Assembly: GCF_036345155.1 (NCBI RefSeq)
Contig: NZ_CP107772.1
Span: forward strand, 9,052,001 to 9,116,000
Direction of reading: 5' to 3'
DNA: 64,000 nucleotides
Origin: Streptomyces sp. NBC_00582
GTDB lineage: Bacteria; Actinomycetota; Actinomycetes; Streptomycetales; Streptomycetaceae
Below are positions 12,111 through 15,607 of this stretch, in pieces (positions within the stretch are counted from its first letter, which is position 1; every line of letters begins with the position of its first letter). A program made the position numbers and the translations under genes. The notes below the pieces were generated by a model. It had not been told where the DNA came from, did not search any database, and worked only from the letters and a program-made list of their open reading frames with translations.

Positions 12111-15100
12111 TCAGCCGACGATCCGGCCCACCTCGATCCGCGCGATGTCCGGGGCCGGCCCGTCCGTGTTCCCGAAGGTCACCGTGTTCACGCCCGCCAC
12201 CAGGTCGACGGGGACCGCCAGGGTCCAGAAGTCGTGCCGGCTCCAGGTGTTCTTGAACGTCGCCCGCAGCGGGGCGCCGCCGCCCACGGTGATCTCGGCC
12301 GTGCGCGAGACGATGTCCGTGTTGTAGGCGTGACCGTTGTCGCGGCGGTCGTCGTGGGCGTAGTGGACGACCAGCAGATGACGGCCCGGCGCGGGCGCGT
12401 CCACGGTGAACCGGGCCGTCCCGGCCCGGTCGCCGCCGAGCCCGGTGACCCGGTGCCCCCCGGGGGCACGGGCGCACGCGACCAGCCGGGCCCCGCCCTC
12501 GAGCGCGGCGGTGGCCGCCCCGTGGGACAGGACCCCGGCGTCCGAGCCGTCGCCGGAGACCTCCAGCGAACGCAGCGCGGCGTGCCCGGCCGTGGCGGTG
12601 ACCCGGTTGTTGCCCGCCGCGAGACACAGCCGCAGCGGTGTGCCGGGCCGCGCCGTCACCGTCTCCCCGTGCAGGGCGAGTTCCACCTCCGCCGAGGCCC
12701 GTGCCACGACCGTGAAGCGGCCGTCGCGCGGGGCGTACACGTCGAACACCGCCCGGTCGCCCTCGCCCAGCACCAGCGCACCCGTGCCGGTCCCGGCCGA
12801 CGAGGAGTAGTCGTACGACGGGTCACCGCCGGGGTCCGCCAGCGTCGCCTCGTACACGGCGGACGGGGCACCGGCGCGGGCGGTCAGATCCAGGCGGTCG
12901 AGGCTCACCGCGGCCTCGCCCTTCGCGAGCGTGAGGACCCGCGTCCCGGCCCGCAGTTCCACCCGGACGTCCTTCCTGCCGCCGTGGGACCGGTTCTGGG
13001 TGGACGGGTATACGACGGTGACCGGGTCCCCGCCGTCGACCGACAGCCGCTGGGTGGCGGGGCCCCCGGAGTCGTTGCCGTACAGGATCGCCAGGTCGTA
13101 CACGCCGTCGGCGGGGACCGTCACCGTGAAATCCACCCTGCTGGTGGGGGAGTCGAGCGACTCGACGTTCCGCGTGCCGGAGGCCGCGTAGCCGTTGGCG
13201 TCGCTCACCGTGCCGTGGGTGCGGACCTGCCCGTCGGTGACGGCCGCGTCCTCCGCCTCGTACGACGCGGACCAGGGGACGCGCGGGGGCGCCGGGATGC
13301 CCCGGCCGGCCGGGGTGAGGACGATCCGGTAGGCGGACATCCGGCGCAGGCCGCGCAGCGGCACGGTCACCGAGCCGTCCCCGGCCACCCGCACCTTGGT
13401 CCGCGTGAGCACGCCCGGCGCCGGGTGCGGCCCCTCGTACCCGGACCAGGCGGCCTCGGCGACGGTCGCGACGACCGTACGGCCGAAGACGTCCGCCGGG
13501 ACGTTGTGTACGACGACGTCGGCGTCCCCCGTCGCACCGCCGAGCAGCACCTGGGCCTGGCGGCGGCCGGTGTCGAGGGAGGCGAGACCCTGGAGGGTGT
13601 CGACGGTGTGCGGCGCGGGCGGGGTCACCCGGACGGTGTCGCCGGTCAGGCCCGCGTACCAACGGAAGAACCACCAGGCCCCGTTCGGGATGTTCATCCG
13701 TACCACGGTGCCGCTGAGATTGCCGGCGGCGTCCCAGTAGGCCTGGTTGGCGTACACCTTGTTCCGCTCGAACATCGCGACCCACTGCACGAGTTGGCCC
13801 GGCACGGACAGGTCGCGGCGGTTGGCGTACTCGTCGATGTTCACCGTCAGCGGCGGGATGCCCGCCTCCCGCTCGATGGACCGGTACACGTCGTGGTGGT
13901 CCTGGAAGTCCCGCAGCGAGGAGGAGTCCAGCTCGTGCCAGGTCATCACCTGCGGCAGGACGTCCTCGCGCCGGGCGAAGGCGAGGAAGTCCGTCAACAG
14001 GCGGGCGTGGAAGGCGGCTTCGTTGGGCCCGGCGATCCGGGCGCCCGGATGGACCGCCCGGATGCGCCGGTACACCGTCCTCCAGTCCCGCAGGAACCGG
14101 TCCCGGTTGGCCTCGTACTCCATCTGGTCGGCGACGTCGAGGTGGTACCAGATCTGGTCGGGCTCGTTGAACGGCACGTAGACGAACCGGTCGCGGTCCG
14201 GCCGGGCGGCGATCTCCTCGACGATCCCGTCCACCCGGGCCAGATGGTCGTCGATCCCGAGGTCCTCGTAGGGCCACCGGGCGTAGGTGTCCTGGAGCAG
14301 CACAAAGATCTCGCCGCCGCCGTTGCGGAAGAAGGACCGCGCGACGGTGAGGGCGTCCCCGTTGGGATGCTGGGCGCCGCCCTCCGGTTTCTGCGAGATG
14401 CTGGTGATCTTCAGGGGTGCGAGCACGGCGTCGCCGGGTACCCCGTCGTCGCTGAGCCCGTACAGCGCCCCGTTGGCGCCGTGAAGCACCGGGCCCTCGG
14501 AGACGGCGAGGTCGACGGTCAGGCGCTGCGGGCCGGCGGCCCGTGCGGGCGGCGGCCCCGAGCTCTCCCGCACCAGCAGCTCCGGCTCCGCGACGGGGTA
14601 CGCGTGCGGCGACGCCGGCTCCTCCAGCGTCGAGTGCAGCAGCGCGAACGCGGCCCTGCCGAGGCCGGCGAAGTCCAGTCGTACGGTGGTCAGTCGCGGG
14701 GTCAGGAACGCGGCGTGCGGGGCGTCGTCGAACCCGGCCACGCTGACCTCGCCGGGGACCGCCCGGCCGCACTCGTGCAGGGCGCGCAGCACCCCGAGCG
14801 CGAGGTCGTCGTTGCCGCACAGGATCGCCGTGACGGCGGGGTCCCGCGCCAGTGCCAGACCCGCCGCATGACCGGCCTCCGGTCCCCAGCCCCCGTGCAG
14901 GGGACGGGGTTGCGGGGCTCTCGCGTCCCGGAGCGCCTGCCGCCAGCCGCCGGTGCGCGGGCCGGTGCGGCGGGCGCCGGTGGGGAGCGCGACGTAGTGC
15001 ACGGTCTCATGGCCGAGGGAGAGCAGATGCCGGGTCGCCTCGTAGGCCGCCCGGCGGTCGTCCGTCCACACCCAGGGCCGGCCGTCGCGGGGTGGGCGCG

Positions 15101-15572
15101 CGGGTGTCTCGACCACCCCCACGACCGGCAGACCTGGCGGCACGCAGTCAAGCGCCCGCACCCCGGCCGGGTCGTAGGCGAGCACGATCAGCCCGCCGCC
15201 CTGGTCGGCGGCCCGCTGTACCTCGGCGGCGACGGCGGACTCCTCCGAGGACTCCAGGACGCCGATCCCGACCGCGTACGAGGCGGCCCGGGCGGCCTCC
15301 TCGACCCCGCGCAGCACGGAGGCGTACCCGTAGTGGGTGGTGTCGGCGGTGAGGACGGTGACCGCCCTGCGGCGCCCGCTGGCCAGCGCGAAGGCGGTGG
15401 GGTTGCGCCGGAAGCCGAGCGCCTCGACCGCGCCGAGGACCCGCTCCCGGGTCGCCGGGCTGACCCGTGGATGACCGTTGATCACCCGGGAGACGGTCTG
15501 GTACGAGACTCCGGCGGCGGTGGCGACATCACGGATGCTCGCGGGACGCCTGGTGTGACCGGTCACCTGCAT
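12111..15572 (-). CDS. LacI repressor fused in frame to a GH39-like glycosidase with CBM domains
   Basis: This is one uninterrupted frame of 1153 residues. Residues 1-60 are a LacI helix-turn-helix (IRDVATAAGVSYQTVSRVING); 65-338 form a complete LacI ligand domain ending GFDDAPHAAFLTPRLTTVRL and LLVRESSGP. About ten residues later a clan-A glycosidase begins (350-770), with VYVPFNEPD (E470, likely acid/base) and NIDEYANR (E581, likely nucleophile). A CBM6/35-like domain (about 785-910) and a second carbohydrate-binding-like domain (about 915-1153) follow. Such glycosidases are normally secreted, but there is no signal peptide at the junction, so the enzyme half should stay in the cytosol. Start ATG 15572 sits 7 nt after a -10-like hexamer, so the mRNA is probably leaderless. 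A longer upstream frame overlaps the next gene and is rejected. Confidence 0.8.
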   Translation of the reverse strand: MQVTGHTRRPASIRDVATAAGVSYQTVSRVINGHPRVSPATRERVLGAVEALGFRRNPTAFALASGRRRAVTVLTADTTHYGYASVLRGVEEAARAASYAVGIGVLESSEESAVAAEVQRAADQGGGLIVLAYDPAGVRALDCVPPGLPVVGVVETPARPPRDGRPWVWTDDRRAAYEATRHLLSLGHETVHYVALPTGARRTGPRTGGWRQALRDARAPQPRPLHGGWGPEAGHAAGLALARDPAVTAILCGNDDLALGVLRALHECGRAVPGEVSVAGFDDAPHAAFLTPRLTTVRLDFAGLGRAAFALLHSTLEEPASPHAYPVAEPELLVRESSGPPPARAAGPQRLTVDLAVSEGPVLHGANGALYGLSDDGVPGDAVLAPLKITSISQKPEGGAQHPNGDALTVARSFFRNGGGEIFVLLQDTYARWPYEDLGIDDHLARVDGIVEEIAARPDRDRFVYVPFNEPDQIWYHLDVADQMEYEANRDRFLRDWRTVYRRIRAVHPGARIAGPNEAAFHARLLTDFLAFARREDVLPQVMTWHELDSSSLRDFQDHHDVYRSIEREAGIPPLTVNIDEYANRRDLSVPGQLVQWVAMFERNKVYANQAYWDAAGNLSGTVVRMNIPNGAWWFFRWYAGLTGDTVRVTPPAPHTVDTLQGLASLDTGRRQAQVLLGGATGDADVVVHNVPADVFGRTVVATVAEAAWSGYEGPHPAPGVLTRTKVRVAGDGSVTVPLRGLRRMSAYRIVLTPAGRGIPAPPRVPWSASYEAEDAAVTDGQVRTHGTVSDANGYAASGTRNVESLDSPTSRVDFTVTVPADGVYDLAILYGNDSGGPATQRLSVDGGDPVTVVYPSTQNRSHGGRKDVRVELRAGTRVLTLAKGEAAVSLDRLDLTARAGAPSAVYEATLADPGGDPSYDYSSSAGTGTGALVLGEGDRAVFDVYAPRDGRFTVVARASAEVELALHGETVTARPGTPLRLCLAAGNNRVTATAGHAALRSLEVSGDGSDAGVLSHGAATAALEGGARLVACARAPGGHRVTGLGGDRAGTARFTVDAPAPGRHLLVVHYAHDDRRDNGHAYNTDIVSRTAEITVGGGAPLRATFKNTWSRHDFWTLAVPVDLVAGVNTVTFGNTDGPAPDIARIEVGRIVG

Positions 15573-15607
15573 GACGGGAATGTTACCGGTCACATCAGAG
15601 GCGTCAA
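15555..15607 (-). promoter_or_regulatory. Promoter and two LacI-type operators of the fused repressor gene
   Basis: On the minus strand TTGACG (15607-15602), a 16-nt spacer and TAACAT (15585-15580) form a good promoter. Operator 1, ATGTTACCGGTCACAT (15580-15595), is a 16-bp palindrome with a single mismatched pair and lies in the spacer and -10. Operator 2, GTGACCGGTCAC (15555-15566), is perfect and lies in codons 3-6. Their centres are 27 bp apart. The central CG and overall form are LacI-like, so autorepression is likely. Confidence 0.65.

Follow-up and report, generated by a model that had tools for sequence, protein, structure and literature searches.

Why should a complete sugar-sensing repressor and a glycosidase of a normally secreted kind be encoded in one reading frame, and what function(s) could such a protein perform? 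The question is raised by a gene on the reverse strand of a 64,000-nucleotide stretch of Streptomyces sp. NBC_00582 (contig NZ_CP107772.1, positions 9,052,001 to 9,116,000; the whole stretch is called the window here), in which a LacI repressor continues into an enzyme resembling glycoside hydrolase (GH) family 39. An earlier reading of the DNA, the original prediction, had proposed a cytosolic DNA-binding glycosidase; it is partly supported, and our results add that the cognate importer was not found, that the export signal decayed earlier, that graded LacI remnants exist in sister strains, and that one operator lies inside codons 3-6. On balance, we consider it somewhat more probable than not that the gene encodes a self-regulated bifunctional repressor-glycosidase of the cytosol, which would have originated from the collapse of an operon of LacI, ATP-binding cassette (ABC) importer and secreted GH39-like enzyme; DNA binding, induction and enzymatic activity are predicted from sequence. 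The gene is composed as follows.

12111..15572, minus strand: fused gene, LacI repressor and GH39-like glycosidase, 1153 amino acids, ATG start, one open frame
15402..15539, minus strand: LacI helix-turn-helix (HTH), residues 12-57 (PF00356, E 1e-17)
14559..15371, minus strand: LacI effector-binding core, about residues 68-338 (PF00532, PF13377; LacI relatives in the PDB)
14526..14558, minus strand: linker region of about ten residues, 339-349
13317..14525, minus strand: GH39-like catalytic domain, residues 350-752 (PDB 8uwt, E 4.1e-48; 5u22/N2152, E 1.7e-44)
14163..14165, minus strand: Glu470, putative acid/base, NEPD motif, invariant in alignment A3
13830..13832, minus strand: Glu581, putative nucleophile, DEY motif, invariant in alignment A3
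12918..13262, minus strand: CBM35-like domain, residues 771-885, below the Pfam cut-off (PF16990, PF22704)
12114..12872, minus strand: C-terminal region, residues 901-1153, without a Pfam match

The claim that a complete LacI protein runs in frame, with no stop, into a GH39-like enzyme is borne out by a single 1153-codon frame with Pfam and PDB matches along it. PF00356 (64 bits) and PF13377 (103.5 bits) each exceed their cut-offs and place the first part in the LacI/GalR family, and Peripla_BP_3 covers residues 181-338, likewise above its cut-off. In its unfused orthologs LacI ends near residue 345 (...VRESSGPPPxx, stop), and the window frame continues past this end as VRESSGPPPARAAGPQRLTVDL into the GH-like domain. 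A long open frame would by itself be weak evidence, because the DNA is GC-rich and several unfused loci also have such frames. Here, the DNA-binding and the catalytic domain sets share one polypeptide, as in trigger enzymes. Glu470 and Glu581, previously described as intact catalytic residues, both lie opposite Glu in 8uwt and 5u22. The latter (N2152, there NF2152) is treated as GH39 in PMC10688797, so that homology to GH39 is indicated; as neither Pfam nor NCBIfam has a GH catalytic-domain model that matches residues 350-752, even with E allowed to reach 1, the label GH39-like is used. The scores for carbohydrate-binding modules (CBM) remained below the cut-offs (CBM_35, 22 bits against 28; CBM13-like, 24.1 against 30), and PF16990 is present in the precomputed annotation of the fused relative P0003. 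A Pfam scan of residues 902-1153 gave no match.

Could the junction simply be an assembly or sequencing artefact that joins two genes? The two genes are separate in most relatives, which would agree with this, but the fusion recurs in other strains, and the case in which this strain alone would differ is already contradicted; we regard an artefact as exceedingly improbable. Five distinct full-length LacI-GH sequences were identified: the window protein (P0001), P0002, P0003, L039 and L040, all with the same architecture. When residues 1-345 were searched against long proteins only, with the best 8000 candidates considered, 11 proteins were obtained, among which P0002 and P0003 are complete LacI-GH fusions and the others, except P0009 and P0010, have different second parts. 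P0002 (99-100% identical, 20-kb contig, four member sequences, in the same cluster as the window protein) differs from the window at several residues and is therefore a near relative, not independent proof. P0003, from Streptomyces YKOK-I1, is 88-90% identical and lies on a 10-Mb contig. In S. griseoruber DSM 40281 (L039, the same locus as L010) and Streptomyces DSM 15324 (L040) the DNA itself carries LacI in frame with GH without a stop. DNA was read for these two and the window, and all three belong to one chromosomal neighbourhood; P0002, P0003, P0009, P0013, P0015, P0016, P0017, P0018, P0025, P0064 and P0111 are protein records. The expectation of fusions in several species thus holds, whereas the conserved linkers that were to accompany them do not, since linker length and sequence vary between the fused strains.

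Protein records understate the fusion, because the DSM 15324 record (P0014, 810 amino acids) starts inside the fused frame and P0016, which like P0015 was seen as protein only, begins with VRESSGPPPA, the LacI C-terminus; annotation can therefore hide such proteins. Long open frames before GH at L011, L026, L080, L081, L118, L121 and L130 were rejected as further fusions, LacI being in another frame or outside the flank, and P0010, where an HTH is joined inside GH and the C-terminus is apparently frameshifted, was considered doubtful and kept out of the trees. The best 80 of 126 confirmed places in named genomes comprise 79 distinct loci. The fusion is present at two of them; at 20, a LacI ortholog (>70% identical) lies upstream at a distance below 1.2 kb, at 44 this distance is larger (about 3.3-3.6 kb), and at 13 the flank shows no LacI. 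In the widest scan of the genus, GH was present at E <= 1e-250 in 52 of 392 genomes, and two of these, G000 and G125 (S. griseoruber), are fused; eight of the 52 were judged by open frames of 862-912 amino acids, too short for a fusion, with the locus itself unread.

How did an exported enzyme come to be attached to a repressor? In the usual layout, read gene by gene at L047, LacI comes first, genes for a solute-binding protein and permease are next, and GH, which has a signal peptide, is last. At the 20 loci with adjacent genes the importer is gone or in pieces, and some retain leftover permease sequence. The signal peptide of a secreted polysaccharide-degrading enzyme is not seen in the fused protein: a 17-residue hydropathy scan gave no hydrophobic segment at the N-terminus or the junction (best values 0.62 and 0.59, versus 1.86 in a secreted relative). 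The original prediction had located this loss at the junction; the absence is confirmed, but it is not peculiar to the junction, because the nearest unfused relatives already lack the signal (DNA of L015/L057, L018 and L035) or have a degenerate-looking one (L074, L083, L089). To suppose that the signal peptide was removed by the fusion itself is thus too simple, as all members of the 18-row clade that includes the fusions lack the signal, have a degenerate one or show none in their record; a separate 4-row clade of the GH tree (P0060, P0115, P0048, P0124) has also lost it. As a side observation, many records of secreted GH (among P0020-P0129) start at an internal Met (MAGTLPAAG...), and the DNA of relatives has a GTG start and a full signal peptide upstream of that position; many database starts are probably too late.

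The GH tree was built from 36 chosen rows (L106, where the core motif was not found, is missing from an earlier tree). The fused and VTGH forms fall into the 18-row clade (100/99), together with those whose signal is degenerate or lacking; a 10-row clade (99/96) consists of the five fused sequences with P0015, P0016, P0009, P0013 and P0017, and the five with P0015 alone form a clade at 100/100. In the LacI tree the five fused halves also group together (100/100, though the bootstrap had not settled completely). AMIN-like, TPR and aldolase-like neighbours are common to the window, L039 and L040 and were not found at the other loci of L010-L131 except the duplicate L010, within flanks of only 1.5-4 kb and some shorter. 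The shared neighbours and joint clades therefore favour a single fusion in a common ancestor.

Trimmed relatives, known from protein records, extend the series. P0009 (Streptomyces sp. NPDC001381, 875 amino acids) has the LacI HTH joined straight to GH, with the sugar-binding core missing, and P0013, P0017, P0018, P0025, P0064 and P0111 start with MxVTGH or MEMTGH, the first LacI residues and the operator sequence, directly before GH; apparently, LacI was deleted in frame in several lineages. Because the fused forms have HTH-only and VTGH-only sequences as close neighbours in the tree (AU test, p 0.0005 against a clade of the fused forms and P0016 without these, a group named post hoc), the trimming of LacI may have begun there from ancestors that were fused, and the VTGH forms P0018/P0064 and P0111, which fall outside the 10-row clade, look independent in origin. 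Taken in order, the relatives would show a route in which the importer is lost, the signal peptide is lost or decays, the genes fuse in frame, and LacI is trimmed to its HTH or its first six residues.

These forms encourage us to ask whether the fusion was selected mainly for expression of GH from the LacI start region, an internal start perhaps giving a GH-only protein while LacI is being lost. The six VTGH/MEMTGH relatives and the HTH-only form are what this would produce, and GTG codon 334, with GGAG 6 nucleotides upstream, is a possible internal start; the P0016 record starts at the equivalent codon, and that of P0014 is internal as well. In addition, the VTGH strains are not named among the 120 best separate LacI proteins listed (clustered at 90%, some rows nameless). 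However, the GGAG sits in LacI coding sequence common to unfused genes, internal record starts may be annotation choices, and the fused LacI halves are as constrained as unfused LacI. We therefore regard such capture of a promoter as quite unlikely.

The control region contributes to the picture of an autoregulated gene. Its predicted elements, compared in 24 distinct upstream regions (three from fused genes), are these.

15580..15607, minus strand: promoter-like pair TTGACG-16-TAACAT, 7 nucleotides before the ATG; TTGAC in 24/24 regions
15582..15593, minus strand: operator O1, GTGACCGGTAAC, 27 bp upstream of O2 and overlapping the -10; GTGACCGGTMAC in 21/24 regions
15555..15566, minus strand: operator O2, GTGACCGGTCAC, inside codons 3-6, where it encodes VTGH; exact in 20/24 regions

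The promoter-like pair is the sole such match in 3.9 kb (shuffles, mean 0.1), and since it ends 7 nucleotides before the ATG the transcript is probably leaderless. Palindromic operators with a central CG near the promoter are characteristic of LacI/GalR regulators, and GTGACCGGTMAC is kept at two places: 17 of the 24 regions have it upstream together with GTGACCGGTCAC in codons 3-6, and the spacing, countable in 20 regions, is 27 bp in 17 and 28 bp in three. Codon 5 is GGT in all 24 regions although GGT accounts for only 11 of the 122 Gly codons of the fused gene, which argues that the constraint acts on the DNA. The promoter and operators described as intact are indeed present, but not unaltered: O1 has one half-site changed to GTGACCGGTAAC, a form that S. 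griseoruber and DSM 15324 share, and the -10 region is ...TAACATT instead of the ...TCACAAT of most relatives. In the genome, GTKACCGGTMAC occurs at four places, two of them at the fused-gene promoter; one of the others is within a coding gene, the second close to a cluster that has a galactosidase and a LacI paralog, and neither pointed to a clear target. One-mismatch near-matches within the window are also expected by chance.

Is the enzyme half, then, still of use to the cell? Selection was measured as omega, the nonsynonymous to synonymous ratio (NG86; non-independent pairs with synonymous distance dS 0.10-0.45, three of them fused). For LacI, omega is 0.166-0.247 in fused pairs against an unfused median of 0.173 (n=196), and 171 of 191 conserved columns are kept, four of the 20 changed ones (334-337) being gaps due to a row cut at residue 340 or to longer linkers. 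The LacI half is therefore under ordinary constraint and looks like a working repressor. Of the three roles offered in the original prediction, namely hydrolysis of its own inducer, tethering of the enzyme to DNA and an inactive relic, the last thus does not apply to this half.

Several observations on the GH half and its surroundings weigh against a bifunctional protein. Omega in the fused pairs is 0.284-0.347 in the catalytic domain (unfused median 0.185, 90th percentile 0.285, n=3968) and 0.502-0.616 in the CBM and C-terminus (median 0.295, 90th percentile 0.385, n=3429). None of the five fused sequences has kept the conserved W861 and Y863, and in some relatives almost nothing of LacI is left. 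The importer that would bring in a ligand may be missing: at E <= 1e-20 its cognate solute-binding protein was not found in G000, G125 and G549 (DSM 15324), which are fused genomes, nor in G207, G063, G107 and G281; the protein of the common cluster is present in the control genomes G009 (98%) and G007 (89%), and G026 has one at 33%. Elsewhere in the window's genome are two GH39-like paralogs of the ordinary kind (L134:3685-6876, minus strand, and L135:4682-6451, plus strand; identities 37% and 33%), with signal-like N-termini and in clusters with a solute-binding protein and permease.

On the one hand, these data would suit a working autorepressor with a decaying passenger, in which the genes merged once importer and signal peptide had gone, and GH drifts because it no longer matters: omega is raised, more so in the binding modules, and 72 of 475 conserved GH columns are changed in at least one fused sequence. 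These columns are at least 97% conserved among 106 unfused proteins, and the five fused sequences all retain the other 403. On the other hand, the GH part of the three fused DNA sequences has neither stop nor indel, though a C-terminal truncation would spare LacI; indels are confined to codon 8 and the linker, all in multiples of three. Catalytic omega is far under 1, both catalytic Glu are kept, and sister strains retained GH while dropping LacI. We consider the decaying passenger somewhat unlikely. By these measures the GH half is retained but less constrained, the binding modules being the most relaxed part, and omega is raised in the unfused signal-less relatives as well; the relaxation fits an enzyme that no longer meets extracellular polymers, or slow decay.

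The self-regulated repressor-glycosidase is supported by the retained catalytic Glu residues, the five fusions, the dual operator, the constraint on LacI and the retention of the GH frame. Without inducer, LacI dimers would occupy O1, over the -10, and O2, in codons 3-6, and would block the probably leaderless transcript; a sugar ligand would free them, and upon release one chain would yield repressor and enzyme at 1:1. The attached enzyme would most likely cleave small intracellular oligosaccharides related to the LacI effector, and could in this manner feed back on its own synthesis. A more specific version, which we offer tentatively and hold to be rather doubtful, is that the LacI core and the GH active site share one oligosaccharide, so that the inducer is destroyed or generated at the operator; a single gene would then be a complete sense-act-reset circuit.

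Similarity to known systems is found on both sides of the junction. The fused protein shares with the LacI/GalR-family repressors of Streptomyces sugar operons the HTH, the sugar-binding core, the palindromic central-CG operator and, as predicted, autoregulation, and differs from the usual ones in its C-terminal glycosidase, its intragenic operator and the lack of an adjoining transporter. In PMC4052901, autoregulation is given for 72% of the LacI regulators studied, and operators inside the coding region make up under 1% of LacI sites. The catalytic domain is homologous, with both Glu, to the GH39 enzyme N2152 (5u22), which we consider with the bifidobacterial GAfase and AAfase, and the AAfase cluster described in PMC10688797 is similar to the one of unfused Streptomyces loci, with LacI, solute-binding protein, permease and secreted enzyme. 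Unlike these enzymes, the fused protein has neither signal peptide nor importer and is joined to a regulator.

Proteins that unite enzyme and regulator are a known kind. PutA and BirA are trigger enzymes, or enzyme-regulator proteins. BzdR, with catalytic and DNA-binding parts in one polypeptide, is of the same type (PMC3602430). Unlike these three, the window protein combines a hydrolase that was once secreted with an entire repressor, sensor domain included, and no natural LacI-glycosidase fusion was found described in the literature searched, most subscription journals lying outside its reach. Other proteins likewise carry a second domain after LacI, namely LacI-DUF6807 (P0007 and P0008, two species of Cellulomonas) and a LacI-GFO/IDH/MocA oxidoreductase (P0005), but the second domains are unrelated and the LacI parts only 36-45% identical to that of the window. 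A natural chain with a complete sugar-sensing repressor and a glycosidase, accompanied by extant forms that link operon, fusion and trimmed fusion, makes testable the origin of regulator-enzyme fusions, the cytosolic re-use of a once secreted enzyme, and the processing by a repressor of its own inducer.

Finally, contig C1 of G000 has two pairs of equally scoring LacI genes that mirror each other close to the two chromosome ends (near 169560 and 188977 at one, near 10622228 and 10602812 at the other), which suggests that the terminal inverted repeats span some 190 kb or more.

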